Shown here piece by piece: positions 908 to 61,904 of a stretch of DNA of 64,000 nt. The notes beneath the pieces are model-generated. The model was not told where the DNA came from. It was given only the letters and a program-made list of their open reading frames with translations, and searched no databases. The translations under genes and the position numbers were made by a program. Source of the DNA: a virus; the IMG/VR virus record IMGVR_UViG_3300036770_003943, positions 124,001 through 188,000 of that record; one strand, given 5' to 3'. Numbering within the stretch: the first letter of the stretch is position 1; every line of letters begins with the position of its first letter.

Positions 908-1901
908 CGAGAATTTGACGATCGACTACATCGCTTTCGATAGAACTTAGTTGTTTTATGACTATTTGATCTACACTTTCAAAATGTATATCACCGCTCC
1001 AATCTTGTGCGTGTTCTTCTTGTTTGGATGGGATCAAACTGAGTTCTCGGAGATTAAATGTTTCCTGCCAAGTTTCTTTTAAAAAGTTAGCTTCTTCAAA
1101 ACTAATATCAGCGTCACAGGTTACACGAAGAAAAGTATTTTTATTCATATAACGATCAGGGTCTTCGATCAATTTTGTTAGATTAATTGTTTTAAAACTA
1201 GGAGCATCAGGCCATGCTATGTATTCGGGTTCTTTATCCCATTCAAATATCATCATACCACGATTGTCATCCCACGCATCGGCATAATTATGGGGGAAAG
1301 CATTGCCTATATAGTGAACATTGCCTCTCTGCTGCCTTAGGTGAAAGTGTCCACTGAATACATATTCTTGATTAGGAAAATGATTAGAATTTAGGCCACC
1401 ATGATCAGGCATTTCTACCATGGCATTCATTTTAAAACTAGGTAGTTCAAAGTGTCCAAAAACATAACGACTGTCTAGTCGAGACATTTTAGTCCATTCA
1501 TCGCTTACAAGCCAAGGAACAAGACTAACCCCACCTTCAGAGTAGATTTCGTTTACCAAAACTACGTTATTTAAATGTCTAATAAACGGTAAACTATTTA
1601 AATCACGACGTTCTCGATAGTATAAGTCATGGTTACCAGGAATGAAAAAGAAACGCTCGAAGTGTTGACTAATATACTCTATGGCGTTAACAGTGTAATT
1701 CAGTGTACTGACGTTGACAGTGGCACGATGGTGATGCCAATCCCCTTGAAATATAGCAGTGTCGCAATCATGTTTATTAGCAGTTTCACAGAACCATTTA
1801 ACGAACTCCATACAGTCGTCGTTATGTGCTTTACTGTTTTGACGCATGCCAAAATGTATATCTGTAAATACTGCAGCTCGTTTAAACAATTGACTCATCA
1901 A
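879..1901 (-). CDS. 47: gp47-like recombination endonuclease subunit (SbcD/Mre11-type)
   Basis: A 340-residue calcineurin-like metallophosphoesterase. Visible metal-binding motifs in order: D14-x-H16, GD at 53-54 followed by three His, GNHD at 89-92, and GHFH at 184-187. Length matches T4 gp47 (about 340 residues). With gp46 it forms the nuclease-ATPase that processes double-strand ends in phage recombination and replication. Its ATG overlaps the end of the gp55 gene, with AGAGGAT upstream as ribosome site, so the two are translationally coupled. Confidence 0.93.
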   Translation of the reverse strand: MMSQLFKRAAVFTDIHFGMRQNSKAHNDDCMEFVKWFCETANKHDCDTAIFQGDWHHHRATVNVSTLNYTVNAIEYISQHFERFFFIPGNHDLYYRERRDLNSLPFIRHLNNVVLVNEIYSEGGVSLVPWLVSDEWTKMSRLDSRYVFGHFELPSFKMNAMVEMPDHGGLNSNHFPNQEYVFSGHFHLRQQRGNVHYIGNAFPHNYADAWDDNRGMMIFEWDKEPEYIAWPDAPSFKTINLTKLIEDPDRYMNKNTFLRVTCDADISFEEANFLKETWQETFNLRELSLIPSKQEEHAQDWSGDIHFESVDQIVIKQLSSIESDVVDRQILVDIYNSLTV

Positions 1902-2755
1902 TAATCCTCTGTCTTTAGATTGGCTATACGTTCTCTTTCGTCACGCATCATGGCTTCGTGTTCGAATTGACGAGTAAAGCTGGGGTTGCTTCCTAGTTCA
2001 ATTAATAGGTCATCTCGTATCATTTGATTTTTCTTTTCTATATTAAGTATACGAGTAAAACTGTTATCAATAGCAGCAGTGTAGTAGGCAAATGGGTTTT
2101 GACTTTTCGATTCGTCAAACTGTAGTCCAATTTGACTCAATTGTAATAGTGCTTGACTACGCATTTCGTCTACATAGGTATAGCCGCGCCAGTTGAACCT
2201 CATACTATATCTTTCAACTAACATCATAAAACTACGAGCTAGTTTTGGAGTCATTTGCCCGTCTAGATTAAAGCGTCCTGTTGCTAGATCTCCGCGCCAA
2301 TGACTTTTACCTACACAAACTAGCTCATCATTATCATTAAACTTCCAATGTTGATAGGGAGGAAAATTTACTTTACAGTGATGATCTCCGCGACTCTTTG
2401 GTGTTTTTTTACGTCCCGGTTCCAGCGGAATATGATCGTGGGTCATGATTCTAAACACTACATCATTTTTAGATATCTTTTTATAGTCGATTTCGACATC
2501 AGCTAATCGTGATTTGGGATTAATTTTTTGAGCCTCGGCTAGCGCAATATGACTTAGTTTAATAGCTCTATTACGTTTGGCTTCAGCAATAGTGCGTATG
2601 TTAATTTTGCTAACATCAGCTAATATCAAATCATAATCACTGTATTCAGGTTGCGAATAACTGCTATATCTGTTTTTACTTAGGTGAATCTCTTTGAGTA
2701 ACTCTTTGTTAGTCAAATATTGTTTGGCTTGTGTTGTGGTGGTCATAGTAGGCAT
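1898..2755 (-). CDS. 55: gp55-like late-transcription sigma factor with a large insertion
   Basis: 285 residues. Residues 185-250 match the sigma region 2 of T4 gp55: FNWRGYTYVDEMRSQAL, then NPFAYYTAAIDNSFTRIL and a basic EKKNQ segment. The N-terminal NKELL element of T4 gp55 is also present near residue 16. Between them lie about 120 residues absent from the 185-residue T4 protein, including RIMTHDHIPLEPGRKK and HWKFNDNDELVCVGKSHWRG. In T4, gp55 directs host RNA polymerase to the late promoter TATAAATA; several NATAAATA boxes occur in this window. Start is either M1 or M4 (2746); a promoter -10 abuts M1, favouring M4 or a leaderless start. Confidence 0.88.
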   Translation of the reverse strand: MPTMTTTTQAKQYLTNKELLKEIHLSKNRYSSYSQPEYSDYDLILADVSKINIRTIAEAKRNRAIKLSHIALAEAQKINPKSRLADVEIDYKKISKNDVVFRIMTHDHIPLEPGRKKTPKSRGDHHCKVNFPPYQHWKFNDNDELVCVGKSHWRGDLATGRFNLDGQMTPKLARSFMMLVERYSMRFNWRGYTYVDEMRSQALLQLSQIGLQFDESKSQNPFAYYTAAIDNSFTRILNIEKKNQMIRDDLLIELGSNPSFTRQFEHEAMMRDERERIANLKTEDY

Positions 2756-13603: not shown

Positions 13604-13611
13604 AATAAATA
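13604..13611 (+). promoter_or_regulatory. T4-like late promoter box (AATAAATA) for gp25-gp6 operon
   Basis: AATAAATA ends 5 bp before the gp25 ATG at 13617, the same arrangement as at 2817-2830 (box, TC, then A-rich, ATG). It heads a structural operon of over 12 kb. Confidence 0.58.
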
Positions 13612-13616
13612 TCAGT

Positions 13617-34971: not shown

Positions 34972-35710
34972 TATATTTTTTCTAAGTTACAACGAACCTT
35001 ATGCTGACGACAATTACAAAAAATTGTTACAGCGATTTCCTACTGCTAAACGGGTAAATGGCATAACGGGTTTTAGAGCGGCACATCAAGAATGTGCTCG
35101 ATTAAGCATGACTGAAAACTTTTATGTAGTAGACAGCGACGCAATAATACAGGATGATTTTAACTTTAGTTTCAAACCTAGCAAGTTTATGCGTTGGTGG
35201 GATATACCGCAAACCAAGTTTATTTGTCTTTTTCAAAGTGTAAATCCCATTAATGGATTGATTTATGGTCATGGAGGTGTTAAAATACTACCTAAGCAGG
35301 GCATACTTGAATCGGATACTAATAGCGTAGATTTTACTACGGGATCAAATTTACCAATTAAAATGTTTGATCAAGTCAGCAATGTTACTAAGTTTAACCA
35401 TGATGAGTTTAGTACTTGGCGCTGCGCCTATAGGGAAGCAGTTAAGTTAGTCATGAACTTGAATAATCAAAGTATATACTACAAATTAAATGATGATGTG
35501 CTGATCAATCAATATTTTAAGGACAGTAAGGACCGTCTAAGAGTATGGTGTAGTCTGGGTAAAAATAAGCCTTATGGGGAATACTGTATAGAAGGTGCTC
35601 GGCAGGGTAAATTCTACGCCCAGTCGAACAAAGACAATAATGACGCATTGTCTCTAATAAACGATTTAGAATGGATGAAAAATGAGTTTGATAAATTCAT
35701 TAAATCATAG
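34964..35710 (+). CDS. GT-A-like protein, tandem paralogue 2 of 4 (short form)
   Basis: 248 residues from ATG 34964, overlapping the radical-SAM stop by 8 bp. It has IFFLSYNEPYADDNYKKLLQ, RVNGITGFRAAHQECA, NFYVVDSDAI (D-x-D) and NPINGLIYGHGGVKI, as in the other paralogues. Most like paralogue 4 at 36676. Acceptor unknown. Confidence 0.6.
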   Translation: MLDIFFLSYNEPYADDNYKKLLQRFPTAKRVNGITGFRAAHQECARLSMTENFYVVDSDAIIQDDFNFSFKPSKFMRWWDIPQTKFICLFQSVNPINGLIYGHGGVKILPKQGILESDTNSVDFTTGSNLPIKMFDQVSNVTKFNHDEFSTWRCAYREAVKLVMNLNNQSIYYKLNDDVLINQYFKDSKDRLRVWCSLGKNKPYGEYCIEGARQGKFYAQSNKDNNDALSLINDLEWMKNEFDKFIKS

Positions 35711-36674
35711 ACAGATAGAATTTGGCAAAGTACCAGTAGTTTTTATCAGCTACGACGAACCTAACGCCGATGAAAATTATCAACATCTTCGAGATAATCA
35801 TCCCAACCCTTCAATGATATCTAGAGTACACGGTGTTAAAGGTTTTGACTCTGCTCATAAATGCGCTGCTAGACAAGCTGACTTTGACAGATTTTTCAGC
35901 ATTGATGGTGATTGTCAAGTTGATCCAGCATTATGGCAGAAACGATTGACCTTAGATAGAGATCATCAATCAGCTACTCTAAGTTGGAGCAGTAGAAATC
36001 TAGTAAATGGGCTAGTTTATGGTAATGGTAGTGTAAAACTATGGCATAGTGAATATGTACTAGCCATGCGTAGCCATGAAGCAGCAGATCCAAATGACAG
36101 CCAAAATAACATCGACTTTTGCTGGGACGCTGATAATTACAAATTAATGAACAATACCTACGGGCTTATCTTTAATAATGCCAGTCCTAAACAGGCATTT
36201 CGTTCAGGCTTTAGAGAAGGCATAAAAATGGGCCTAAACCAAGGAGTTAAGATACTGCCTAAAAATTTTGCCAAAGAAATGTATCCTGCTAATTATGCTC
36301 GTTGGTTAATATGGATGACAGTGGGTAGAGATGTAGCCAATGGCAATTGGGTTATGTACGGTGCTAGATTAGCAGCCAGTTTACTCTACATAGAAGGCTT
36401 TGACTATAGTTTAATTGCTGATTATGATTGGTTTGATGAGTTATGGGAACAACAATTAGACGCACTAGACGATGGAGAATATCTAGAACATCACAGTCGA
36501 AATCTTGCTAATCAGCTTAAAGAACAGCTAGATCTTCCTGTGGAAGAACTTACCAGTGAACAAAGCATATGGTTTAAACACTGTAATTTTAGCCCTCTTA
36601 AAGGCACACCATGGTCTGTGTTATTAAATCAAAGCTCATTGCCTTTATTTGGATTTGAAACACCAAACTTTTAA
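35682..36674 (+). CDS. GT-A-like protein, tandem paralogue 3 of 4 (long form)
   Basis: 330 residues with VFISYDEPNADENYQHL, RVHGVKGFDSAHKCA, FFSIDGDCQV (D-x-D), NGLVYGNGSVKLW and FREGIKMGL. Very like paralogue 1 at 31671, including the segments after residue 130 (DFCWDADNYKLMNN against DFCWDIYYHQMNN). It overlaps paralogue 2 by 29 bp. Confidence 0.6.
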   Translation: MSLINSLNHRQIEFGKVPVVFISYDEPNADENYQHLRDNHPNPSMISRVHGVKGFDSAHKCAARQADFDRFFSIDGDCQVDPALWQKRLTLDRDHQSATLSWSSRNLVNGLVYGNGSVKLWHSEYVLAMRSHEAADPNDSQNNIDFCWDADNYKLMNNTYGLIFNNASPKQAFRSGFREGIKMGLNQGVKILPKNFAKEMYPANYARWLIWMTVGRDVANGNWVMYGARLAASLLYIEGFDYSLIADYDWFDELWEQQLDALDDGEYLEHHSRNLANQLKEQLDLPVEELTSEQSIWFKHCNFSPLKGTPWSVLLNQSSLPLFGFETPNF

Positions 36675-36675
36675 T

Positions 36676-37359
36676 ATGATTCCTGTATATTTTTTATTCA
36701 CTAACGAAGCTAACGCTCAAGAAAACTTTGAAAGATTGTGCGATAAGTATGAAAATGTAATACCGGTTGAAGGCACTAACAGCATATTTCTAAGTCATAA
36801 ACGAATAGCAGATCAGTGTGACTACGATAGGTTTTATGTAGTAGATGCTGATTGTTGGCTAGTAGATAATTTTAAATTTCAACACAATATTGAATTAAGA
36901 TCAGGTAGTGTAGCAGTATTTAGAGCAAAAAATCCTATCAATGGTTTGGTTTATGGACACGGCGGAGTAAAATTGTTTAGTAAAGATTGTTTTAGTTTAG
37001 CCAGGCTAGAACGTCCTGATATGACAACCAGCTTGGCTGACGAATATATTAAGGTCAATATATTGGCCAGCGAACATAGATTTAATTATAGTCCTTATAG
37101 CACCTGGAGAACTGCCTTTAGAGAAGCTGTTAAGTTAAGTGCTGGATTGAATAAAAATAACAATGACCAAGAAAGTAAAGATCGATTGGCCATGTGGTCT
37201 ACAGCAGGCATAGAAAATCTCTATGGATATTTCAGTATACAAGGGGCAAAACAAGGAATTGACTTCGCTCATGATCCAGGCAATGATCCTAATAAAGTAA
37301 ATGATTTTGAGTATCTTAGATCTAGATTTGTAGCATGGACTGGCATCAATGACCAATGA
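36676..37359 (+). CDS. GT-A-like protein, tandem paralogue 4 of 4 (short form)
   Basis: 227 residues from ATG 36676, two bases after the preceding stop; an ATG at 36649 is less likely. Signatures: YFLFTNEANAQENFERL, FYVVDADCWL (D-x-D), NPINGLVYGHGGVKLF, STWRTAFREAVKLS. Same family as paralogue 2. Overlaps the methyltransferase-like gene by 11 bp. Confidence 0.6.
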   Translation: MIPVYFLFTNEANAQENFERLCDKYENVIPVEGTNSIFLSHKRIADQCDYDRFYVVDADCWLVDNFKFQHNIELRSGSVAVFRAKNPINGLVYGHGGVKLFSKDCFSLARLERPDMTTSLADEYIKVNILASEHRFNYSPYSTWRTAFREAVKLSAGLNKNNNDQESKDRLAMWSTAGIENLYGYFSIQGAKQGIDFAHDPGNDPNKVNDFEYLRSRFVAWTGINDQ

Positions 37360-38200
37360 TGTTTCATGGCTAGTGGGATTAGAAAAATATTTTCGATTTG
37401 TTAACCAAGTCGAACAAGCTCAGTTTGTCAAACATATCAGTAGCTTATTCTATACCAGTCAATTAGATAAACCATGGACATTAAAACATCTAATAGCCGA
37501 TGACTACGAAAATTTTACCAGCAGTAATAGAAATTTAAGGTCTGCTTTTTATGTTAAACTATTCAATGCCACAGAACTATCAGCCAAAGAGTTTTTGGAT
37601 ACAATGAAGTCTATATGGCCCAGTGATATTTTCATTGATAATCTAATCAAACTAAACAATATAAACGACAGAATATTACAGACTGTTTTTGCCAAAAGTC
37701 AAGTGTTAAGTAAAATATGGCTATCTGAAATTTTAGAAAAGAATGAAACAACGTTTGATCACATTCTTCTACTTGGCGGGTGGCTAACACAGCATACCTT
37801 ATATTTTCGTAATATAAAATATAATAAGTTGTTTAGTATAGACATGGATAAAGAAACGAATACTTTGGCCAAGATACTTAATCCGTTCGCAGTTATCTTA
37901 GACAACGATTGTAATAGTTGTTTTGACGAATCTAATAACATAGTAATCATGGATAAAGTTCTTGAACCTGATTTGATAATTAATACCAGCGCCGAACACA
38001 TGGCCGATGACTGGTTTCATAAACTTAAACCCGGCACACGAGTAATTGTACAGAGCAACGATACTGCTCTAGAAGATCACATTAATTATTGTAGAGATTT
38101 CAATGACTTTTTACGCAAGTATCCTGTTGACACTGTGATATATAGAGGAGAGCTAGTAATGAGTAAATATACAAGATTCATGCTATACGGAATAAAATAA
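37349..38200 (+). CDS. class I methyltransferase-like protein
   Basis: 283 residues. The second half has a Rossmann pattern: ILLLGGWLTQHTLYF near residue 137 (motif I), LFSIDMDKETN (acid after strand 2), LIINTSAEHM (strand 4), KPGTRVIVQSND (strand 5), and SKYTRFMLYGIK at the end. I know this INTS-EHM/QSN pattern from SAM-dependent methyltransferases in phage genomes. The first 130 residues are helical and unrecognised. Substrate unknown. Shares an A (TAATG) with the next radical-SAM gene. Confidence 0.62.
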   Translation: MTNDVSWLVGLEKYFRFVNQVEQAQFVKHISSLFYTSQLDKPWTLKHLIADDYENFTSSNRNLRSAFYVKLFNATELSAKEFLDTMKSIWPSDIFIDNLIKLNNINDRILQTVFAKSQVLSKIWLSEILEKNETTFDHILLLGGWLTQHTLYFRNIKYNKLFSIDMDKETNTLAKILNPFAVILDNDCNSCFDESNNIVIMDKVLEPDLIINTSAEHMADDWFHKLKPGTRVIVQSNDTALEDHINYCRDFNDFLRKYPVDTVIYRGELVMSKYTRFMLYGIK

Positions 38201-39372
38201 TGTATAAGTATCACCAAATTGAAGTAGTACATTTAGAAATGACAGAAGCCTGTAATGCCAGCTGCCCTATGTGTGCTCGTAACCTAAATGGAGGGGAAGT
38301 TAATCCGTATTTAGACAACAGAGAGCTTAGTATAGAAGATATACATAAAATATTTTCTCATGACTTTGTTAGACAATTGAAGCGTATTTACATGTGCGGC
38401 AATTACGGAGATCCTGCTGTGGCTCGTGATACACTGGCAGCATTTAAGTATTTTAGAAGCACAAATCCTCAGATTAATCTTAGTATGCACACTAATGGTT
38501 CAATGAAAAAACCCGAATGGTGGGCAGAACTAGCCCAGGTAATTAATCGAAAAGGATATGTGGTATTTGGTCTAGACGGACTTGAAGATACTAATCATCT
38601 ATATAGACAAGGCACAGTGTGGGCTCGTATAATGGAAAATGTAGCAGCCTTTATTGCCGCTGGCGGCCGAGCTAGATGGGATTTCATCGTCTTTGCTCAT
38701 AATGAACATCAAGTTGAAGAAGCTAAAAAGCTGTCTAACCAAATGGGCTTTGAACGTTTTCAATACAAAAAATCTGCTAGGTTTTTTAGCAATACCAAAG
38801 CTAGTACAAAGGATCAACATCAAGCACAAAACCGTCGAGGATTTACTACTTTATTACAAGCACCTACTAATCCTAAATATAGAAACTCTGTGTTAGATCA
38901 ACTCACCAAGCAGGCTAGCTCATCTGTACAGAATATTACAGTAGATAATATCGTACGTCGAGAAAATCTAGATCAAGTACAAGGCTATCAAACGTTTAGT
39001 CTAGATCCCGCCAAGAAAAAACCAATAGAACCTGTATGGGATGAAGCAGTAATTGATTGTAAAGTAGCCAAAGAAGGTAATTTGTACGTCACAGCTGAAG
39101 GTGTACTACAACCATGCTGCTGGACGGCAGGACAGATGTACCTTTGGTATTATCGACCGCAGGGTAGTCAGATGTGGCAGTTTATCAATCAAGTCGGAGT
39201 AGATAATCTAAATGCTAAAAATCACAGTGTTGAATCTATAGTGAACGGTGATTTCTTTCAGAAAGTAATTCCCGAATCATGGGCCAAACCTAGCTGTGCT
39301 GAAGGAAAAAGTGCTATGTGTGCTAAAATATGCGGCACTAAATATGATGCGTTTCAGGAACAGTTTAAATGA
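38200..39372 (+). CDS. radical SAM/SPASM enzyme 3
   Basis: 390 residues. CNASCPMC near residue 13 is CX3CX2C, followed by YMCGNYGDPA in place of the usual GGEP, then FGLDGLEDTNHLYRQG and MENVAAFIAAGG. C-terminal cysteines (VLQPCCWTAG; CAEGKSAMCAKICG) fit an auxiliary cluster. Enzyme 4 at 39369 is a close relative; both form a pair overlapping by 4 bp. Confidence 0.82.
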   Translation: MYKYHQIEVVHLEMTEACNASCPMCARNLNGGEVNPYLDNRELSIEDIHKIFSHDFVRQLKRIYMCGNYGDPAVARDTLAAFKYFRSTNPQINLSMHTNGSMKKPEWWAELAQVINRKGYVVFGLDGLEDTNHLYRQGTVWARIMENVAAFIAAGGRARWDFIVFAHNEHQVEEAKKLSNQMGFERFQYKKSARFFSNTKASTKDQHQAQNRRGFTTLLQAPTNPKYRNSVLDQLTKQASSSVQNITVDNIVRRENLDQVQGYQTFSLDPAKKKPIEPVWDEAVIDCKVAKEGNLYVTAEGVLQPCCWTAGQMYLWYYRPQGSQMWQFINQVGVDNLNAKNHSVESIVNGDFFQKVIPESWAKPSCAEGKSAMCAKICGTKYDAFQEQFK

Positions 39373-40445
39373 AGCACTACCTACCAAAGCCTAAGGTAAT
39401 TCAATTTGAACTAAGTTCGGTATGTAATCTACTTTGTCTTGGTTGTGTACGCACAGATCCCGGCAGCTTTAACACCGCTAAATCTTTTATTAATCGTAAT
39501 GAATATCTTAGCAAAGAAACTTTTTTGAAAATTTTATCAAGTGATTTTTTTAGTCCAGTTGAAAAGCTAGATTTTTGTGGAACTATAGATGATCCACTTA
39601 CTCATCCTGACTTTTTAACCATGCTAGATATGTCTTTAACAGTTAAACAATATGAAGTTATTATTCATACAAATGCCAGCTTAAGAACACCTGAATATTT
39701 TGTAAAATTGGCTAAAGTTTTAGGCAAGCATAGACAACATACTGTACACTTTAGTATTGATGGACTGGAAGATACTAATCATTTATATAGGCAAGGTAGT
39801 TCATGGTCTAAGATTATGGAGAATGCTCAGGCCTTTATTGCCGCTGGCGGCCATGCCATGTGGCAATTTTTAGTATTTCCATGGAACAAACACCAAATTG
39901 ATCTAGCTAGGCAAAAAAGTAAAGACATGGGATTTCGTTTATTTCAGCTTAGGCATGATCGTAGTCTTATCACTAAAATAGGCCTAGAAAAAGTTCAACA
40001 GCGTAAACTAATCAATAAGGTAAGCATATCAGAGCCTGGAGATTTTCATGACTTTACTCGAAGTTTAGATGTTAGACTTGCTGAGCCTGTACTGTGTAAT
40101 ACACAAAAATATAGTCAGTATTTCATAGGTCATGATGGTCGCATATGGCCGTGTTGTTTTATACATAACGGTTTTCTGGCTACTGATTCAGCTAAAACGT
40201 CTTCGCTTAAGCAAAGACTTTACACAGTCTATAACGATACTGATTGGAATAATGTAAATAATCATGAAGTTGACGATATTATACAGCATAGATTTTATGC
40301 CGAAGATTTAGTGGATAGCTGGCAGTCAACTCAGCATGGAACAGCTATGAAAGATAGAATATTTAGATGTACTGAAGTTTGTAGTAAAACCAATATAACT
40401 GAGTTACCAATTGGTAATCATGAAGTAGAAACCTTAAATGTCTGA
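39369..40445 (+). CDS. radical SAM/SPASM enzyme 4, paralogue of enzyme 3
   Basis: 358 residues. CNLLCLGC near residue 18 is CX3CX2C, then DFCGTIDDPL replaces GGEP, then FSIDGLEDTNHLYRQGSSW and AFIAAGGHA. C-terminal WPCCFIHNG and FRCTEVC match the SPASM-like end of enzyme 3. Tandem duplication with divergence is likely. Overlaps enzyme 5 by 8 bp. Confidence 0.82.
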   Translation: MKHYLPKPKVIQFELSSVCNLLCLGCVRTDPGSFNTAKSFINRNEYLSKETFLKILSSDFFSPVEKLDFCGTIDDPLTHPDFLTMLDMSLTVKQYEVIIHTNASLRTPEYFVKLAKVLGKHRQHTVHFSIDGLEDTNHLYRQGSSWSKIMENAQAFIAAGGHAMWQFLVFPWNKHQIDLARQKSKDMGFRLFQLRHDRSLITKIGLEKVQQRKLINKVSISEPGDFHDFTRSLDVRLAEPVLCNTQKYSQYFIGHDGRIWPCCFIHNGFLATDSAKTSSLKQRLYTVYNDTDWNNVNNHEVDDIIQHRFYAEDLVDSWQSTQHGTAMKDRIFRCTEVCSKTNITELPIGNHEVETLNV

Positions 40446-41847
40446 AAATAAATCACCTAGTAAAACATTTTGTATATTACCCTGGGTACACCTAAGTACT
40501 AGACCAAATGGTCATATGAGGGTCTGTTGTACTGCCAATGCCAGTAGTGTAGGACCTACCAATGATAAGAGTCACGGCGGTGAAATTGGCGTACTCAAGC
40601 AGGCAAATGGTAAACCTGCTAATCTTAATCAAACAGATTTTCTTACTAGTTGGAATAATCAGTACATGAAAAATGTTCGAATACAGATGTTAAATGGTCT
40701 AGAACCTCCTAGCTGTACCAAATGCTACAAAGAAGAACGTGCAGGTCATCAAAGTAAACGCCAATGGGAAACAAGGTATTGGAGTGAACGGGTTGATGTC
40801 GATCAACTAATAGCTAACACAGCTGAAGATGGTAGTGTACCTCCACAGGTAACCTATATTGACATGAGATTCGGGACTAAATGTAATCTAGCCTGTGTAA
40901 TGTGTAGCCCCCATGACAGTAGTTTATGGATACCTGAATGGCAAAAATTGTATCCTAAGTTTCGTAATGTCAGTTTAAAGGAAACCATGCAATGGGACAA
41001 TAAAGGACAAGTAAACGGAGCTAGCTACAATTGGCACAAAAACAATCCTAAGTTTTGGGAACAATTATGGGAGCAGGTCCCCAACATGAAACAGTTGTAT
41101 TTTGCTGGTGGTGAACCATTGATTATTGACGAACACTATGATATACTGGAAGAATGTATTCGTCAGGGATATGCCAAAGATATGGAAATACGCTATAACA
41201 GCAATGGGGTAGAATGGCGAGAAGATCTGTTTGATTTATGGCGACAGTTTAAGTTAGTTAGATTCCATTACAGTGTAGATGCCTACGGAGAAAGAAATGA
41301 TTACATTCGTTATCCTAGCAAGTGGAGTCGAAACCTAGAAGCGTTTCGTCAACTCGATACTGAAACCAGCAATAATGTTGAAGTTACCATAGCCTGTGCT
41401 GTACAAGCTCTAAATATATATTACATTCCAGAATTCTTACGTTGGAAACTTGAACACGGCTTTAAAAAAATTAACATGTGGCCTTTTGGGGCTGGGGGTA
41501 TAAACTACCATTTTGTTTATCATCCTCCGCACCTAAATGTCAAAGTTTTACCTATGTGGTTTAAAGATGAAATTGAACGCAAATACGAAGAATTTATACC
41601 ATGGTGGATTGAGAATTGGGAACTAGGTGTACCTACATGGTACAGAGGTAAGGTAACAAAAGAAAAATGGCTGGCAGCAGACTATGGCATTAGTAGACTA
41701 CGAGGTATGGTTCGTTTCGCAAAAAGCGAAGATTGGAGTTTACGCTTGCCAGAAACACAGGAATACTTAGAATTATTAGATCAACAACGAGGTACAAACT
41801 TTTATACTAGTTTTCCAGAAATGAAAGACATATTTAAAGATGTTTAA
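40438..41847 (+). CDS. radical SAM enzyme 5 (N-terminal twitch-type)
   Basis: 469 residues. N-terminal FCILPWVHLSTRPNGHMRVCC and CTKCYKEERAG give the auxiliary-cluster cysteines characteristic of the 'twitch domain' group. Core motif CNLACVMC (C149, C153, C156), then LYFAGGEPLI. Many aromatic and charged residues follow, and the end FPEMKDIFKD matches enzyme 2. Enzyme 9 at 47194 is its nearest relative here. Confidence 0.85.
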   Translation: MSENKSPSKTFCILPWVHLSTRPNGHMRVCCTANASSVGPTNDKSHGGEIGVLKQANGKPANLNQTDFLTSWNNQYMKNVRIQMLNGLEPPSCTKCYKEERAGHQSKRQWETRYWSERVDVDQLIANTAEDGSVPPQVTYIDMRFGTKCNLACVMCSPHDSSLWIPEWQKLYPKFRNVSLKETMQWDNKGQVNGASYNWHKNNPKFWEQLWEQVPNMKQLYFAGGEPLIIDEHYDILEECIRQGYAKDMEIRYNSNGVEWREDLFDLWRQFKLVRFHYSVDAYGERNDYIRYPSKWSRNLEAFRQLDTETSNNVEVTIACAVQALNIYYIPEFLRWKLEHGFKKINMWPFGAGGINYHFVYHPPHLNVKVLPMWFKDEIERKYEEFIPWWIENWELGVPTWYRGKVTKEKWLAADYGISRLRGMVRFAKSEDWSLRLPETQEYLELLDQQRGTNFYTSFPEMKDIFKDV

Positions 41848-43099
41848 CAGTAAAACTTTTTGTATAATGCCCTTTATACATCAGAATATAAAACAAGAAG
41901 GTAAGGTCAGTGCTTGTTGGCGTTATCCGGATAGGATCGGCGATTATCGCAAACAGACTTTGCCAGAAATTTGGAACAGCGAACAAACCAAAGAACTAAG
42001 ACGTAGTTTGCTTAATAATGAGCGACCGCAAGGATGTCGTAGTTGTTGGGATTTCGAAGATAGCCGAGTTCCTAGTACTAGACAAACTTGTTTGGATACT
42101 TATAAAGAACAGTATAAAATAAATTTTGATCAGATTATTGCCAAAGTAAACGATGATTACTCTATGCCTTACCAGCCACGTTCAATTGAAATACGCTTTG
42201 ATAATACCTGTAATTTTAGATGTAGACACTGCAGCCCTACTTATAGCAGCCAGTGGGAAAATTTGGCTTTTCAAAATTCCGAAGTAAAACAATTTTTTGA
42301 TCAACATGAAGTAGGCAGGTTAGAAAAAAAGCATATTAGTTTGCCCGATACAACCATGGAGGAATTCATTACAGCAATTCCTTATCTTAAAGAAGTTCTT
42401 ATCGCAGGAGGAGAACCGTTACAGCAACTAAGACATTGGCGTGCTATGGATGCTATGTTACCCTATGCTGAGAACATAACTCTTAGCTATAATAGCAATC
42501 TTAGTTCGTTAGGTATAAAAAATTATAATGTCTTAGACTATTGGCCGAAGTTTCACAAAGTTGTTCTTAGAGTAAGCATAGACGGTGATTCAAGTACCTT
42601 TAGTTATTTTAGAACCAATGGACAGCTTGATCTAGTACTGGCCAATGTTGAACAACTACATAAGTTAACCAACTTAGAAATGAGTCTAACTACCACTGTA
42701 AGCATATATAATATATCTAGACTAATTGATATAGTTAAGCTGGTAAATCAAGCAGGGGGATACTTTCATACCAGTCTTGTTCAATATCCTAGGCCCATTA
42801 ATCCTAAAGTATTACCCAAGCACATCAAAGAAAAAATTTCTGATGAATGGTATTCTTTTACCAAAACCTTGAAAGAAAACACTAGACTTTGGGAGCATGA
42901 CATTTGGCTCAATGAGGATCTAGTTGAAAAACAATGTAAACGTATCAATTGGTACGGTCACTATGTAATAAAATATATGAATGCCGAAGATTATTCCAAC
43001 AGCCTACCAAAAACTAAAGAGTACATTAGGTTCTTGGATCAACTTAACAATACTAGTTTTGCTGATGTTTATCCTGAACTTGCTGAGTTAATAAATTGA
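41840..43099 (+). CDS. radical SAM enzyme 6 (N-terminal twitch-type)
   Basis: 419 residues. FCIMPFIHQNIKQEGKVSACW and CRSCWDFED form the N-terminal cysteine set (one Cys in SACW where relatives have CC). Core CNFRCRHC near residue 128, then VLIAGGEPLQ. It overlaps enzyme 5 by 8 bp and converges with enzyme 7, overlapping it tail to tail by 31 bp. Confidence 0.85.
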   Translation: MFNSKTFCIMPFIHQNIKQEGKVSACWRYPDRIGDYRKQTLPEIWNSEQTKELRRSLLNNERPQGCRSCWDFEDSRVPSTRQTCLDTYKEQYKINFDQIIAKVNDDYSMPYQPRSIEIRFDNTCNFRCRHCSPTYSSQWENLAFQNSEVKQFFDQHEVGRLEKKHISLPDTTMEEFITAIPYLKEVLIAGGEPLQQLRHWRAMDAMLPYAENITLSYNSNLSSLGIKNYNVLDYWPKFHKVVLRVSIDGDSSTFSYFRTNGQLDLVLANVEQLHKLTNLEMSLTTTVSIYNISRLIDIVKLVNQAGGYFHTSLVQYPRPINPKVLPKHIKEKISDEWYSFTKTLKENTRLWEHDIWLNEDLVEKQCKRINWYGHYVIKYMNAEDYSNSLPKTKEYIRFLDQLNNTSFADVYPELAELIN

Positions 43100-45105
43100 T
43101 GTAAGTTAGCCAGTAAAATAGGATTTACATCGGCTAATTTGTTTGATCTTATCTTTTCCATTTTTTCAATATAGGTCATAAATTGTTCTGCCAGCTTATG
43201 ATTGCCTTTTGAACCACTACATAGTTTGCGTATTTTTTTAACACTGACTAATATAGATTCTGGTAAACTAGTATATCTAGGATGTATGGAGGTAAAATTG
43301 GCTTGATAATTATCGCACCAGTCAATAATGTTTTTGTAATAAGACTTAGGCAGTATGTTAACAGACAGATATGATGGGTCAAACGCTGGCTGTATTTTAA
43401 AAAATCCGTCATATTCTACACTGTCTAAGGAACAAGGGTTATCTTCATTAAAGTAATTTCTGTATTGATTAGTCCACCAAGTAATCAAGTCTTGAATGTT
43501 ATAGACATTTAATACGCTAAGAGTGGTGCTCATTATAATTAAAAAGTTATCGTTCTGTCGACTAATCTCAAGCCAGTAGGTTAAGGCACTGCTGACAGAA
43601 TGTTTTTCTCCTGACCAAATACTGGGATAACGTATGTAATCGTTCAATGACCCATAGCCATCTATGCTTAAATTAAGGTATATTTTTTTGAATCTATTCA
43701 AGTTGGCTAGTAATCGAGCACTTGGTATATAGCTACAGTTAGTGTATATTTCTAAACTGACCTGTTCGGGCTTTCCTTGCTCGCATATCTGGTCAATGAA
43801 CTTGACAAACTCAGGATTAATCATTGGCTCTCCGCCAGTAAATTTTACTAGATTAACCGTGAGTAAGGACTGTTTACTGAGTTTAAATTGTAAATTGTCT
43901 AATTTTGGATAGACTATTCTTTTTAAGTTCGAGTCTTTTTCTGACAACATACTGTTTAATTTTAGTTCGTCATCGTGCCAAGTTGTGCTAAGGTTGCTGT
44001 TACAAGTCAGGCAGGCCATATTACAGTAGTTCCCAAATCCTACTTCAAGAAATTCTAATCTTGGATTAGGAAACTTTGGCCTACGATGCAGATAACCATG
44101 GTTATACAATATATTTGAGCCTAATCTCATGCTCAATCCTACATCAGTTTCGTTATCAGCTTGTTCTTCTTTGTAGCATTTGTGGCAACCTTCTAAGGAT
44201 TGATTGTTTAATATATGCTGTCTTGCTGTTTGCCAATAAGGGCTGGTATAAAATACACTGTCTATATCTTGTTGACGTATACTGGGTCGTTGATCAGTCA
44301 ACTTCATATAGTCATTAATATGATCATGATTGGTGATCTTTTCATAGACACTGCGTTTATAGACTGTGTCATAACGACAACATAGTTTACTTTGACCGTC
44401 TGGCTTGTACTGTATATGATTCCATGGAAGTATACAAAAAACTGGATTCAGTTGAGCATATAACTTGCCAGCATAATTTTCATAGTGGCTATTAGTTGAA
44501 TCAACTAGTTCTATCAGTGTATTGTGGAATCTCCATCCAATGGTCCAGTTCCTATGTAGTATTTCGTTCAAGGCAAAATCAAATTTTGAGTCTTTGTACT
44601 TGGATCTATTGAAACCCATGTACATGTATTGATTTTTATTGTTGTCTAATTTAGTTAGTTTGCTTAGTATAGCTAAAAATTTATTTGTGTCGTCGACTAG
44701 GTCTACATGATGAAATTCAAATTTTGATTGACGAAATGCTTGCCAGCAGGCCTTAAAAAATTCTATATTATAGAAGTTTTCTGGTATATGTTTTTGGTAA
44801 TTATCAAGGTCAATTACCATTGGTGTTGAAAATTTTTCTTCGGCAGACAACGTTAGTTCGAACAAACTGTTGAGATCTCCGTCCCATGATAAAAGATATT
44901 TGAATATATCTATATTATTTTGATTTTTATCGTAGACAACGAATTCGGGACGATAGCCTTGTAGATCTACTGGGCTTCGATGACCAAAAGATCTTAGGAA
45001 TAATCTAAATAGGCTGTCTCCTGTACCTATGTATCTTAGAAAATTATTAGTACATCGGCCTCGTTTTTGATTAAGCAAAGCCTGGTTAATAAGAAAATAA
45101 CTCAT
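43069..45105 (-). CDS. radical SAM enzyme 7 with extra N-terminal domain, inverted
   Basis: 678 residues, the longest radical-SAM protein here and the only one of the island on the minus strand. Residues 1-220 are an added domain with no recognised family (RPEFVVYDKNQNNIDIFKYLLSWDG within). Residues from about 222: FCILPWNHIQYKPDGQSKLCC, CHKCYKEEQAD, then CNMACLTC and VKFTGGEPMI, as in the twitch group. The added domain could be a degenerate methyltransferase-like fold, but I cannot show this. It would be driven by the palindromic late box at 45118. Confidence 0.8.
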   Translation of the reverse strand: MSYFLINQALLNQKRGRCTNNFLRYIGTGDSLFRLFLRSFGHRSPVDLQGYRPEFVVYDKNQNNIDIFKYLLSWDGDLNSLFELTLSAEEKFSTPMVIDLDNYQKHIPENFYNIEFFKACWQAFRQSKFEFHHVDLVDDTNKFLAILSKLTKLDNNKNQYMYMGFNRSKYKDSKFDFALNEILHRNWTIGWRFHNTLIELVDSTNSHYENYAGKLYAQLNPVFCILPWNHIQYKPDGQSKLCCRYDTVYKRSVYEKITNHDHINDYMKLTDQRPSIRQQDIDSVFYTSPYWQTARQHILNNQSLEGCHKCYKEEQADNETDVGLSMRLGSNILYNHGYLHRRPKFPNPRLEFLEVGFGNYCNMACLTCNSNLSTTWHDDELKLNSMLSEKDSNLKRIVYPKLDNLQFKLSKQSLLTVNLVKFTGGEPMINPEFVKFIDQICEQGKPEQVSLEIYTNCSYIPSARLLANLNRFKKIYLNLSIDGYGSLNDYIRYPSIWSGEKHSVSSALTYWLEISRQNDNFLIIMSTTLSVLNVYNIQDLITWWTNQYRNYFNEDNPCSLDSVEYDGFFKIQPAFDPSYLSVNILPKSYYKNIIDWCDNYQANFTSIHPRYTSLPESILVSVKKIRKLCSGSKGNHKLAEQFMTYIEKMEKIRSNKLADVNPILLANLHQFINSASSG

Positions 45106-45117
45106 TGTGTTTTGTGT

Positions 45118-45143
45118 GATAAATATTTATCTTAGTATATAAT
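45118..45143. promoter_or_regulatory. palindromic bidirectional late box plus TAGTATATAAT
   Basis: GATAAATATTTATC (45118-45131) is a perfect 14 bp palindrome with GATAAATA readable on each strand. To the left it serves enzyme 7 (ATG 45105), to the right the operon from 45147. On the plus side TAGTATATAAT follows (TATAAT 45138-45143), as before 28661. Confidence 0.6.
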
Positions 45144-45146
45144 GAT

Positions 45147-45374
45147 ATGCCAGATCTTAAAGAACTATCCCTAAGACAGCTACAACGTGAAGCAGCTAGA
45201 GTAATCAGCAGCATGCCGGCTACCAATGATAATATTTATAAGTTTAATAAAGCCAGCAGACATAATAGTCAAGGATGGTATATAGCGGCCATAGAATGGT
45301 ATATTAATGAATATGGTGGTCTGCCCAGCGAATGTGGACCAGGCAAAGATGTAACATTTATCATGGAGGAATAA
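45147..45374 (+). CDS. small protein, function unknown, heading the second radical-SAM operon
   Basis: 75 residues (MPDLKELSLRQLQREAARVI...), no recognised family; a helical start and a mixed aromatic/Gly end (WYINEYGGLPSECGPGKD). It has one Cys and could be considered as a peptide substrate or partner, but no leader/core layout is visible. It ends one base before the nitroreductase-like gene. Confidence 0.6.
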   Translation: MPDLKELSLRQLQREAARVISSMPATNDNIYKFNKASRHNSQGWYIAAIEWYINEYGGLPSECGPGKDVTFIMEE

Positions 45375-45375
45375 T

Positions 45376-46038
45376 ATGGAAGAAATGTTTTGGAAAGAAT
45401 TGATTAAAAGTAGAGCTCAAAATTTTACATGGGATATGACTGCAGAAGTTGATAAAGAATTAATTGAAAGCATTGCTACCGACATACATCACAGAGCACC
45501 TAGTAAACAAAATAGAGTACAGTATCAGATGCATATCTTTGATTGGAGTGATAGTGAATTTAGAAATGATTTTTATCAATTTGCCGTAGATAGAGATAAT
45601 CCTAATCCAAGATATAATCCACAGACTCTCGCTCACTACTTGTTTGTTTTTGTTGGCAGAAGTCCTGGGTATTTTGCCAATAGTTTTAGTAATTGGGGTC
45701 CTGGCATTCACCCACAAATCAGCCATTTAGAAATTGGTCTTGCCAGTCATATGCTTATACATGGTGCGTTTGTTAGAGGGTTAGCCTCTGGATTTTGTAG
45801 ATGCTTTGATCACAATTATACTAAGGCACCAGCTATTGCGACGAAATTAAACTTACCATCAAACAAGTCTGATCATATATTTTTAAGTGTGGGCGTTGGT
45901 ATTGAAAGCTATAATAAATTTCAAACATTTAATCCATTTACAAATTCCATGATTCCAGTATCTAAAAACAGCGGAACCATTTGGTACCATGAACCAAAAC
46001 CTGATCCTGCTGAATACATTGTTTATCATACCGCATGA
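45376..46038 (+). CDS. nitroreductase-fold flavoprotein-like
   Basis: 220 residues. HHRAPSKQNRVQYQMHIF near residue 37 is the FMN-binding start typical of the nitroreductase family, and SHLEIGLASHMLIHGAFVRGLASGF near residue 115 matches the core helix; IFLSVGVGIE fits the glycine-rich end. Such proteins transfer hydride to varied substrates, including oxazole/thiazole oxidation in peptide modification. GGAGGAATA precedes the ATG. Overlaps enzyme 8 by 4 bp. Confidence 0.62.
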   Translation: MEEMFWKELIKSRAQNFTWDMTAEVDKELIESIATDIHHRAPSKQNRVQYQMHIFDWSDSEFRNDFYQFAVDRDNPNPRYNPQTLAHYLFVFVGRSPGYFANSFSNWGPGIHPQISHLEIGLASHMLIHGAFVRGLASGFCRCFDHNYTKAPAIATKLNLPSNKSDHIFLSVGVGIESYNKFQTFNPFTNSMIPVSKNSGTIWYHEPKPDPAEYIVYHTA

Positions 46039-47201
46039 CTGATTTAACTACTAGCGAATACGATTTTACTAAGATTCCCTATAAAGACATAGTGCGAGTT
46101 GGTCAACGCACTATGTTATATAGAGATATGTTTACAGTGAGCTGGCTATTGGGTCGCTACTGTAATTACCGTTGTAGCTACTGCTGGCCCTATGCTCGTA
46201 GTGATACCAAAGATCATCGTCCTACTCCTTTGATGTTACACACAGTAAATGAAATTAAACGTCAAGCTAGAGAACGTGGGTTTAATAGTTTTCATTTTAG
46301 TCTAAGTGGCGGAGAACCTACTTTTCATCCTTCTTACATACCCATCTTGAACCATCTCAATGAAGATGCTGCCAATACTAACTATACCAGCGTACATATG
46401 ACCAGTAACATGAGCAGACCTATTCGATGGTTTGAAAATGAATATGTTCCAGCAGTACGTAATTTTCATCGTGCTAGTATTACAGCCAGTTATCATCGAG
46501 AACATGTTAATAGTAAAGAAAAAATGGCTGAGTTTGCTGACAAGTTAATCTTATGCCAAGAATATGATACTCAAATTACCATAAACATGGTAATGGTACC
46601 AGAAAACTTTGATCAGTTATATGAAGAAGCTCTTTATTTTCATGAACGTGGAATTAATGTTACCCTAAAGCCACAGAGCGATCCTACTGCCAGTCGTGTA
46701 GTCGATGGATATACCAAAGACATGTATAAAAAATTACATAATGGTATGCCGCAACGTGCCTTTACTGAATATAAGGCCAGACGAGCCGGTCTAGTGGAAA
46801 GGCCTCGCCCAACCTATATGATTGATCGCGCCGATCCTCTTAGAGAACAACAGGCTGCTATCTCAGCTCACTATCAAATTGAGTTTATAGATAAAAATGG
46901 TCAGTCATGGTACATGGATCAAGCCGAACGGTTTAATGCTTTTAACTTTAACAATTTTAAAGATTGGGAGTGTAGCAGTGGATATCGAAGTATTATTATT
47001 CGTGAACCAGACGGCACAATTAAGCGTAGCTACAGTTGTGCCGAAGTACCCTTAGGGCATATCGAAACCGGCTTTAAGTTATATGACAAACCCATGCCAT
47101 GTGGTAGTTCTAGTTGCGTAAGTAGCGCAGATAGCAAAATACCTAAACGTGCCCCTGGAACTAAGTTACCCTTATTTCCAGTTGATCGAACTTATGAGTG
47201 A
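46035..47201 (+). CDS. radical SAM enzyme 8
   Basis: 388 residues. SWLLGRYCNYRCSYC near residue 36 (CX3CX2C) followed by FSLSGGEPTF; late cysteines CSSGYRSIII..., SYSCAEV and MPCGSSSCV may bind a second cluster. Most similar in design to enzyme 1 (W-LG--CNY-CSYC). Coupled to enzyme 9 by an 8 bp overlap. Confidence 0.82.
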   Translation: MTDLTTSEYDFTKIPYKDIVRVGQRTMLYRDMFTVSWLLGRYCNYRCSYCWPYARSDTKDHRPTPLMLHTVNEIKRQARERGFNSFHFSLSGGEPTFHPSYIPILNHLNEDAANTNYTSVHMTSNMSRPIRWFENEYVPAVRNFHRASITASYHREHVNSKEKMAEFADKLILCQEYDTQITINMVMVPENFDQLYEEALYFHERGINVTLKPQSDPTASRVVDGYTKDMYKKLHNGMPQRAFTEYKARRAGLVERPRPTYMIDRADPLREQQAAISAHYQIEFIDKNGQSWYMDQAERFNAFNFNNFKDWECSSGYRSIIIREPDGTIKRSYSCAEVPLGHIETGFKLYDKPMPCGSSSCVSSADSKIPKRAPGTKLPLFPVDRTYE

Positions 47202-48510
47202 TACTTTTTGTCCAATCCCTTGGATATTTCAAGCTGTACGTAACAACGGCGATATTCGTATCTGTTGTCAAGCCAACGTGACTGAAAATCAAGGAGTAGT
47301 ACGCAAGGAAGATGGAACCCCATTTAATGCTGGTAAAGATGTGATGGAAGAGGCACGCAATGCCGAATTGATGCGAGCAGTTAGGCTTAACATGCTCGAG
47401 GGACAATGGAGTACAGAATGCGGTCGTTGTCAGCAGGAAGAAGCCAGCGGGCTTAGTAGTAGACGACAATATGAAAAGGAAAATTGGAAGTTTAATATCG
47501 AAGCTGCCAAAAAAATTACTAATCAGGATGGATCAGTTACTGGTCCGAAATTAGAATACTACGATCTACGGTTTGGTAACCTGTGTAATCTAGCCTGTCG
47601 TATGTGCGGACCAACTGACAGTCATACATGGTACGAGCAATGGACAGACTATCATGGATCTCACAGTTATACTGATACTCATGGCACAGTTAAATTAACA
47701 CGTAACGACAATGGAAGATTGACTACCAATGACTATGATTGGCACGGCAGCGAAACATTTTGGCAGCAGTTAGAAGCCAACATTCTTAATATACGACATG
47801 TATATATGGCAGGCGGTGAACCCATGATGATAGAACGCCACTATGAGTTTTTACAGCGTTGTATTGATCAAGGCCAATCAAGCAAGATGATTTTAGAATA
47901 TAATACCAACATGACAAACTTGCCTAACCGTGTTCTAGACATGTGGACTAAGTTCTTACAAGTCCGTGTAGGTGCTAGTATTGATGGTATAGAAAATGTC
48001 TTAGAATATCAGCGTTGGCCACTAAAATGGAATCAAGCCTACAAAAATCTACAAAAATTAGATCAATACGCAATAGATAATAAAAACATACTAGCTTGGC
48101 TTGCCTGTACTATAACTGCTTACAATGTATGGCACATACCTGAATTCATGCGATGGAAACTTGAACAAAGTGGTTTTAAGAAAATTAATAGTACTCTAAA
48201 ACGCCCAATAATTACTCATCATGTAGCCCATGGACCCAAGCGTGTTAATATAAGAATTTTACCAGATGGGCTAAAACAAGATTTATCCAAATTCTATGAG
48301 AAGCATGGAAACTATTTTGCCAGCAAATATTCAAGTGAAATAAGCCAATCCGCTACAATGATATTGAATAGCATACTTAAGTACACAACCACTGGCAACT
48401 ATTCTGATAAATTAACTGAATTTGTTAAGTTTACTAGGTACTTAGACAAAGCAAGAAATAACAATATTCTAGATATTGTCCCACAGTATAGAGCCTTATT
48501 TGACCAATGA
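47194..48510 (+). CDS. radical SAM enzyme 9 (N-terminal twitch-type)
   Basis: 438 residues from ATG 47194 (MSDTFCPIPW), preferred over 47149 by family start. FCPIPWIFQAVRNNGDIRICC and CGRCQQEEASG form the N-terminal cluster set; core CNLACRMC near residue 132, then VYMAGGEPMM. Nearest relative is enzyme 5 (shared NLACxMC, ASIDG-type and EFMRWKLE segments). Overlaps the SDR-like gene by 4 bp. Confidence 0.85.
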   Translation: MSDTFCPIPWIFQAVRNNGDIRICCQANVTENQGVVRKEDGTPFNAGKDVMEEARNAELMRAVRLNMLEGQWSTECGRCQQEEASGLSSRRQYEKENWKFNIEAAKKITNQDGSVTGPKLEYYDLRFGNLCNLACRMCGPTDSHTWYEQWTDYHGSHSYTDTHGTVKLTRNDNGRLTTNDYDWHGSETFWQQLEANILNIRHVYMAGGEPMMIERHYEFLQRCIDQGQSSKMILEYNTNMTNLPNRVLDMWTKFLQVRVGASIDGIENVLEYQRWPLKWNQAYKNLQKLDQYAIDNKNILAWLACTITAYNVWHIPEFMRWKLEQSGFKKINSTLKRPIITHHVAHGPKRVNIRILPDGLKQDLSKFYEKHGNYFASKYSSEISQSATMILNSILKYTTTGNYSDKLTEFVKFTRYLDKARNNNILDIVPQYRALFDQ

Positions 48511-51091: not shown

Positions 51092-51114
51092 ATTATATAC
51101 CTAGTTTATTTATT
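51092..51114 (-). promoter_or_regulatory. late-type box AATAAATA with downstream TATATAAT
   Basis: Minus strand AATAAATA (51114-51107) followed by AACTAGGTATATAAT (TATAAT 51097-51092), then AGGAG and the ATG at 51079. Similar to the sites at 28624 and 45118. It lies just after a strong terminator, so a new transcript must start here. Confidence 0.6.
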
Positions 51115-58061: not shown

Positions 58062-58350
58062 GCTCTTTTACAGGCACGCCGGATCTAAGTTCAACCACTG
58101 TGAAATCACTACACTTGAATAATAAGTTTAGCTTTTCCATTAGATTAAAAGCATGTCCAGGATTGCTAAAGCTAACTTTTTTGTATTTTGGCCCTGGATA
58201 ATCCTGTAGACTATTTAGATGTGTGCGTAGATTAAAAGGCTTGTTTTTGTAAAACACAGCATAGATGGCATCGGCCTCCAATATCTCTTCGCTTTTGAAG
58301 GTAGTCGAATCAACGTGAGTTAGTAAGATTGTAGGTTTCGGCCTTGCCAT
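58033..58350 (-). CDS. small protein with late-type hairpin control, function unknown
   Basis: 105 residues (MARPKPTILLTHVDSTTFKSEE). Alpha/beta with a basic end; no family recognised. Its ribosome site GGGAGAT lies in the right arm of a hairpin that also contains a late box, so it is expected to be translated mainly from late transcripts (see 58351-58384). Confidence 0.65.
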   Translation of the reverse strand: MARPKPTILLTHVDSTTFKSEEILEADAIYAVFYKNKPFNLRTHLNSLQDYPGPKYKKVSFSNPGHAFNLMEKLNLLFKCSDFTVVELRSGVPVKEHDIIKKSDK

Positions 58351-58384
58351 GTGTATCTCCCTAGTTTATTTATCAGAGATACAC
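58351..58384 (-). promoter_or_regulatory. late promoter inside a ribosome-site-sequestering hairpin
   Basis: On the minus strand GTGTATCTC (58384-58376) pairs perfectly with GAGATACAC (58359-58351). The loop holds TGATAAATAAACTAGG (GATAAATA 58374-58367). Transcripts coming from upstream would hide the ribosome site; those starting at the late box would lack the left arm. Confidence 0.68.
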
Positions 58385-58397
58385 ATTAAATACCGTT

Positions 58398-58865
58398 TTA
58401 ATCTTCTATGATATCGCCGTCTTTCTTTTGATTTAGGACAACTTTAAGATCCATTTTAGTTTTATACGGACCGACATGTTGATTAGTTTTAATGGTACTT
58501 AGCCTGGGGCATAGGCTACATACCCAACCATTCTTAAATTTTAATCCGTACCAACCTGCCACATGAGTGCTTTTGCTAGCGGCTTTTTTAGTAAATGTTG
58601 GATAGCCTTCGATTTCTTTTACATTAAAAACTTCTTCTTGATCAGTAGGATAGCCCATAACTTCAAGATGTCCGCCATGAGTATAGTCTCTTACTACGAT
58701 TTCTATGCCAAGATTTTTAAGTTCTTTAGTATCTCTGGCTAGATAATCTTTACGTTTAAGACTGATAACATAATTGTCATCTTTGAAATTCATCATACCT
58801 ACACGTTTGGCATTTTCTTCTAAGATCCAGAATTTATCTTTTATTACATTTTTTGCTAAAATCAT
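58398..58865 (-). CDS. phage protein, function unknown
   Basis: 155 residues. Start KDKFWILEENAKRVGMMNF and later GWYGLKFKNGWVCSLCPRL are features I associate with an uncharacterised protein beside the 5'-3' exonuclease in T4-like aquatic phages. CSLC may bind metal. Overlaps the exonuclease gene by 4 bp. Confidence 0.62.
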   Translation of the reverse strand: MILAKNVIKDKFWILEENAKRVGMMNFKDDNYVISLKRKDYLARDTKELKNLGIEIVVRDYTHGGHLEVMGYPTDQEEVFNVKEIEGYPTFTKKAASKSTHVAGWYGLKFKNGWVCSLCPRLSTIKTNQHVGPYKTKMDLKVVLNQKKDGDIIED

Positions 58866-59851
58866 TTATAGCTTGCTCCTAAATAGTCACTATGTTCAGT
58901 CATTTTGTCCGCAATATTAGTTAGTTGAAATTTTCCACAAAACCTAACAAAATGTAAACCAACCTGACTTATTCTTTCTTTTTGACTGGCTGTTGTAATA
59001 ACAGTATCAAGTGCTAGTTTAATATCTTCTGGCTGTTCTGTCAAGTCGATTAGTGTTTTATTGAACTGATATCTGTCACGAACTCTATGTTCTTCACCAT
59101 TATGATCAACCCAACGCTGTAACATCATATTATTCCAGTTATAGCCTTTGGAATTTCGATCAGCGAAGGCTTCGCGTAGACCAACTTTGTTTTTAGTACC
59201 TTTTTCACGCACACCTGGAAAAGCACTAAAAATATTATCTGTACTATCTCCACGCATACATTTTTCAAATAGTAGCCAAGCCGGATCTGGAGCAGGTAAT
59301 GGTTCTTTAGTTTTTTTATCTACTACAGCACGACCCTTTTCGTCAAATACACCTTCTACTGTGATTAGTTGTTTAGTAATACCATTAAACTGCCTAACAT
59401 TAGGTGCCAGTAATTGATAGAAATCACTATCGCTGCTAACAATAACATGATTATCATTAGGATGATTTTGTATCCAGCGAGCAATGAAATCATCTGCTTC
59501 ACAGCGTTCATGCCGTAATACTGTACAGTTAGTCTTGTCGGAAAAATAGTTTTTTAGTTCATCAAAGGCTTGCCAAAAAACTCGATCCTCTTCAGCTTCT
59601 TTAGGACTAAGAGCAGCACGAGCATCTTGACGATTACGTTTATATCCTTCGTAAACATCCTTTCGCCAACTACGCCCTTCTAAACAGATAACAACATGAC
59701 TGCCTTTAAAGTCACGCCATACCTTGTTAATACTGTTAAACATAATGTGATAGGCCATGCCTACTTTGGTTTCAGGATCTTCCCCTCGCACAACATGTCT
59801 GGCACGAAAGAACAGGTTAGCGGCGTCAACTAGTAGATACATTTTAGTCAT
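58862..59851 (-). CDS. rnh: 5'-3' exonuclease / T4 RNase H-like flap nuclease
   Basis: 329 residues. Metal-binding acids are visible in LLVDAANLFFRA, ERCEADDFIARW, IVSSDSDFYQLL and CMRGDSTDNI, in the order known for the FEN-1/T4 RNase H family. It removes RNA primers and flaps on the lagging strand. Length is close to T4 RNase H (305). GTG/ATG choice: ATG 59851 overlaps upstream by 8 bp. Confidence 0.88.
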   Translation of the reverse strand: MTKMYLLVDAANLFFRARHVVRGEDPETKVGMAYHIMFNSINKVWRDFKGSHVVICLEGRSWRKDVYEGYKRNRQDARAALSPKEAEEDRVFWQAFDELKNYFSDKTNCTVLRHERCEADDFIARWIQNHPNDNHVIVSSDSDFYQLLAPNVRQFNGITKQLITVEGVFDEKGRAVVDKKTKEPLPAPDPAWLLFEKCMRGDSTDNIFSAFPGVREKGTKNKVGLREAFADRNSKGYNWNNMMLQRWVDHNGEEHRVRDRYQFNKTLIDLTEQPEDIKLALDTVITTASQKERISQVGLHFVRFCGKFQLTNIADKMTEHSDYLGASYK

Positions 59852-61687: not shown

Positions 61688-61904
61688 ATCTTATTCCACT
61701 CCTAATTTTATCACCATACTTGAGTCTAAGTAGACACTCAAACTCTGTATCAATTGGGCCTTCTAGAGCATACCATTCTTCGGACTCCGGCGGACTCCAG
61801 GTGTCATACAATACTCTGATTTTAACATCAGGATAATTGTCTGTCAACCAGTATTCTAATTGTTTACTTTCCCAAAAGTTAAGAGTCAGAAGTATTTGAC
61901 TCAT
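61674..61904 (-). CDS. small protein, function unknown
   Basis: 76 residues from ATG 61904 (MSQILLTLNFWESKQLEYWL), overlapping the HIT gene by 26 bp; the 61973 start would overlap it far more. It has acidic and Trp-rich segments (WSPPESEEWYALEGPIDTEF). No family recognised. Confidence 0.58.
   Translation of the reverse strand: MSQILLTLNFWESKQLEYWLTDNYPDVKIRVLYDTWSPPESEEWYALEGPIDTEFECLLRLKYGDKIRSGIRFGNV

Follow-up and report, generated by a model that had tools for sequence, protein, structure and literature searches.

The window, a stretch of 64,000 nucleotides that forms part of a 231,776-base virus record, carries on its minus strand a small gene, here called gene X, whose start region lies in an RNA hairpin with a T4-type late promoter box in its loop (Table 1). 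The minus-strand sequence of the locus, 5'-AATGTGTATCTCTGATAAATAAACTAGGGAGATACACATGGCA-3', comprises the hairpin and the start of the open reading frame. X had been described as a gene of unknown function, and we found no convincing Pfam, PHROG or PDB-sequence match for it. Its AlphaFold model is a confident small mixed fold (pLDDT 90). With this model, a fold search of the PDB gave no match at E ≤ 0.001, and all relatives that a viral fold library yielded at that threshold were uncharacterised. The genes ahead of X are of replication type, with an exonuclease in both the window phage and PA5oct and a glutaredoxin or polymerase I elsewhere, and an ATPase gene lies downstream of X in several phages.

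Table 1. Positions in the window of gene X, its hairpin and promoter, the genes upstream of it and the late sigma factor gene.
Feature	Position	Strand	Remarks
gp55-like late sigma factor gene	1898..2755	-	T4 gp55, E 8.9e-9; phrog_12791, E 6e-78
Gene X, conserved protein of 105 aa	58033..58350	-	consensus MSRPKPxVLLE...YPGPKYKKVSFSNPGHA
3' (right) arm, reads GAGATACACAT on the minus strand	58349..58359	-	relatives show compensatory changes between it and the left arm
Predicted late transcription start, box + 6	58361	-	predicted from T4 geometry and the spacing peak
T4-type late promoter box GATAAATA, in the hairpin loop	58367..58374	-	conserved ahead of gene X in relatives
5' (left) arm, reads ATGTGTATCTC on the minus strand	58376..58386	-	wholly upstream of the predicted late start; only in read-through RNA
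Same-strand gene upstream of X	58398..58865	-	47 nt before X; presumed source of read-through RNA
5'-3' exonuclease / RNase H-like replication gene	58862..59851	-	upstream of X, in the same run
Strong sigma70-like promoter TTGACA-17-TAAAAT, extended -10	61819..61847	-	consensus match only

The original prediction placed a perfect 9-bp inverted repeat over the ribosome site of X. The repeat lies exactly at 58351-58359 and 58376-58384, but the true perfect arms are longer, 11 bp, reading on the plus strand ATGTGTATCTC (58349-58359) and GAGATACACAT (58376-58386), and RNA folding adds one G-U to make 12 pairs. Read along the minus strand, the 5' arm is followed by a 16-nt loop, TGATAAATAAACTAGG (58375-58360), and then by the 3' arm. 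The Shine-Dalgarno sequence of X, GGGAG, occupies 58361-58357 and the AUG 58350-58348; the right arm takes GGAG together with the A and U of the AUG, in agreement with the predicted cover over the ribosome site, and the promoter box was found in the loop as expected. The 71-nt hairpin RNA has a folding energy of -21.8 kcal/mol (z = -5.66), which none of 200 shuffles equalled, and an Rfam search gave no match. We rejected the idea that the repeat is remarkable merely as an inverted repeat, as the 64-kb window holds 3 perfect 11-bp short-loop inverted repeats versus a mean of 1.75 in block shuffles, a count not above chance. The case against chance comes from its placement over the start region and around the promoter box, and from its conservation with compensatory changes. 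An intrinsic terminator was also rejected, because no T run follows the stem.

We read the box as the putative late promoter of this phage, which encodes T4-like baseplate genes as well as the gp55-like protein; sequence searches for a gp45 clamp, run without a positive control, gave no match. The window shows no enrichment of the exact T4 consensus, TATAAATA, of which it has 3 copies against an expectation of about 11. The usual box in this phage is NATAAATA, mostly GATAAATA, and GCTAAATA is a variant reported for phage Aeh1 (PMC2988020). When boxes of the form NATAAATA or [AG]CTAAATA were counted over 124 kb of the genome (the window and three 20-kb stretches), 19 of 30 lay within 60 nt upstream of a same-strand gene start, where about 1 was expected, and the same was true of 8 of 9 GATAAATA boxes. 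The genes preceded by boxes include those for the portal, baseplate wedge, baseplate hub and tail fibre, and other virion genes. The late box of T4 occupies 8 bases, with its first at -13 and its last at -6 (PMC2988020), so that +1 falls on the sixth base past it. From this geometry we infer that the late RNA of X starts at 58361 with an 11-nt leader, GGGAGAUACAC. As an independent sign, 15 boxes of other genes in the phage and its relatives stand exactly 5 nt before the ATG, a sharp peak, as any other spacing accounts for at most 4. This peak fits leaderless late mRNAs beginning at the A of the ATG, that is, a start at box + 6, and such mRNAs are predicted for the genes with this spacing.

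Relatives of gene X were found in at least 599 candidate stretches. With the PA5oct protein as query we obtained 220, a number from which overlap with the first set was not removed, and the SCTP-2 protein as query yielded no additional ones. Aligned relatives are 48-82% identical to the window's protein. A NNTAAATA box lies within 60 nt of the start in 78 of the 79 leaders of unique relatives (59 of these boxes being GATAAATA), whereas among other genes, taken from the window and the first set of loci, 29 of 583 have one. Furthermore, a same-strand open frame ends within 300 nt upstream in 97 of 97 leaders. A literature search for transcript maps of PA5oct-like phages found none, and neither mapped RNA ends nor expression data turned up for any relative.

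For each leader we calculated how much energy it takes to free the start region, using the read-through RNA, the predicted late RNA and RNA shuffled upstream of the late start. Given a late start about 6 nt past the box, on which the result depends, opening the start region of the read-through RNA cost 9.2 kcal/mol on average over 100 leaders, as against 2.8 for late RNA and 5.3 after upstream shuffling. For these leaders, which are less than 85% alike but were thinned at 85% identity only and are not independent, the mean z was 2.19 (Wilcoxon p about 1e-16), with 51% at p < 0.05; the first 79 leaders gave the same picture. Control genes showed no effect either with a box (z 0.24) or without one (z -0.05). 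Within the window genome, gene X reached z 6.3, and among 18 other genes with boxes one exceeded 2 (L183:3740, z 3.2). The T4 genes e, 49 and soc scored about 4, 2.7 and 1.3, respectively. The start-blocking structure was lost once the RNA 5' end passed box +2 to +5: in the commonest class, with leaders of 16-28 nt, the cost was 7.9 at box -1, 5.9 at +2 and 3.4 at +5, and in shorter leaders it drops earlier because the left arm precedes the box. Swapping the upstream parts between leaders lowered the pairing, with a swap z of 1.49 overall and 1.19 in the 16-28 nt class.

In the minimum-energy fold, 93 of the 100 leaders contain a helix that blocks the start region, and all or most of its 5' strand precedes the predicted late start. 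Seven leaders, including that of PA5oct, have no such helix in this fold; a weaker CCAGTAA/TTACTGG pairing is present in the PA5oct leader. The left arm of the 93 helices stands before the box in 34, over it in 4 and just after it in 55, and the predicted switch on gene X is present in at least two anatomies. The protein tree of X is poorly resolved, so the number of changes between anatomies is only a rough minimum. With the arms placed by hand in the pairing register, which favours structure, and each arm confirmed to be present in its leader, the window and five of its nearest relatives show pairing at 91.7% of cells and changes on both sides in 6 of 10 pairs; the covariation score was reached by none of 500 shuffles and by no slid register.

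In the commoner anatomy, with the arm after the box, the late RNA loses 7 of 11 pairs on average and has a mean fold energy of -2.2 kcal/mol. One pair there is G-C in 13 of 28 leaders and A-U in 12. The sequence after the box, TATGCGTA, also follows boxes of other genes (L036, L044 and L053) and may therefore belong to the promoter, with the right arm having adapted to it; the left arm in this anatomy may be partly promoter sequence, and the swap control is weaker there. In the same three loci, which belong to relatives, an extended promoter, GATAAATATATGCGTAC, stands before a second gene (MTEIHAKP...) and is followed by a different leader hairpin.

Together, these data lead us to propose, with a probability of about 0.85, that the late promoter sits in a translation-silencing hairpin and that X is translated late only. 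RNA entering X from upstream early or middle promoters would carry both arms; it would fold with the Shine-Dalgarno sequence and AUG paired, and X would not be made. The sigma70-like promoter upstream is a candidate early source of this RNA, and its presence, along with the absence of a listed terminator-like site between X and the gene before it, fits read-through. The gp55-like sigma factor would steer the host RNA polymerase to the box, and the RNA, beginning about 6 nt past it, would have no left arm but a short open leader, GGGAGAUACAC-AUG, from which X would be translated late only. The original prediction took this logic from T4 e, soc and 49. It is supported by the gp55 homologue and the GATAAATA-type boxes ahead of virion genes, by the joint retention of hairpin and box in diverse relatives with covarying arms, by the disappearance of the structure past the predicted late start, and by the scores of T4 e and 49, which behave as X does in the opening-cost test. 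We also infer from this arrangement the late-only need for X that had been suggested.

Only a few genes, in T4 and its close kin, are known to carry the T4 hairpin switch. The mechanism of the switch has been demonstrated for e and I-TevI (PMC3014915, PMC2988022). In T4 e, as predicted for X, the start region is paired in the early read-through RNA, the late RNA arises from TATAAATA without the 5' strand, and the two leaders give the same opening-cost signature; however, e is a different gene, and the box of X is GATAAATA, placed in the loop. T4 49 and soc also have a late promoter within or beside the left arm of a start-blocking hairpin, although both genes are unrelated to X. Gene 49 (z 2.7) resembles the commoner anatomy of the relatives, with the arm right after the box, and soc is weak in the test (z 1.3). 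In the leaders of I-TevI, I-TevII, I-TevIII, segB and Aeh1 mobE, a hairpin silences early or middle read-through RNA and the late RNA is translated (PMC2988022). The same is predicted for X, but the I-TevI-type genes encode homing endonucleases, whereas X has no detectable nuclease family match. The T4 gp43 and gp32 operators likewise control translation through RNA structure at the start region, as predicted here, but they require a bound protein and a conserved operator, and no conserved operator was seen among the relatives of X.

This last difference bears on an autogenous operator, in which X or another phage repressor would bind the hairpin and repress translation of X, the box serving only to transcribe the gene. 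A stem over the start region is the usual form of such an operator, and X is small with an unknown function, but stem and loop vary in sequence even between the closest relatives, the left arm is found before the box in some relatives and after it in others, and in most leaders the hairpin would be missing from the late RNA that is to be regulated. We therefore regard this explanation as unlikely. The inverted repeat might instead function at the DNA level, where a repressor of the late promoter would recognise it as a two-fold operator, and in the window and close relatives the arms are indeed symmetric around the box. This is very improbable, since it is the pairing of the arms that is kept and not their sequence, G-U pairs are tolerated, the position of the arms relative to the box varies, and the right arm tracks the start codon rather than the box. 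That box and hairpin coincide by chance, or that the hairpin merely stabilises or processes the RNA, is hardly credible either: perfect repeats of 11 bp are no rarity in 64 kb, but the compensatory conservation, the shuffled and swapped controls and the lack of effect at other gene starts argue against coincidence.

On our preferred reading, a late promoter within a silencing hairpin, X would be a new, widespread carrier of the switch seen in T4 e, soc and 49. Large phages far from T4 would then have such a switch, with covarying stems, on a conserved gene whose function is unknown. Such a switch suggests that selection acts against early expression of X, and this gives a testable clue to its role. 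The leaders of X represent a natural set of solutions to one design and could help in studies of late promoters and translation control in phages that have not been worked on at the bench. We give an even chance to a broader view, that a late-only switch of the e/49 type has been kept and rebuilt several times, with differing geometries, on this one gene throughout a broad group of large T4-like phages, some of which are predicted to have a leaderless late mRNA and a box that is part of the right arm. If true, early synthesis of X would harm a very wide range of infections.

Several other sites were noted during the analysis. Boxes exactly 5 nt before the ATG of unrelated genes are found in the window at 2817-2832 and 13604-13619 (both plus strand), elsewhere in the same genome at L183:8679, L183:3740 and L185:19508 (all minus strand), and in the relatives L009, L011, L013, L014, L016, L017, L019 and L020. 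For gp25, this spacing makes 13617 the likely true start instead of the longest-ORF start at 13440. The gene at L183:3330-3734 (minus strand), whose box at L183:3740 is 5 nt from the ATG, may be a second one with a start-blocking fold (z 3.2). A palindromic box, GATAAATATTTATC, lies between divergent genes at 45114-45135 of the window and could be a late promoter on both strands. At 51096-51114 (minus strand), AATAAATAAACTAGG, which is nearly the 15-mer of the loop, stands upstream of another small gene without a hairpin. Finally, a long run of genes at 29007-48510 appears to resemble glycosyltransferase and radical-SAM/SPASM genes, in a number unusual for a phage, as judged from sequence with one of the genes checked.
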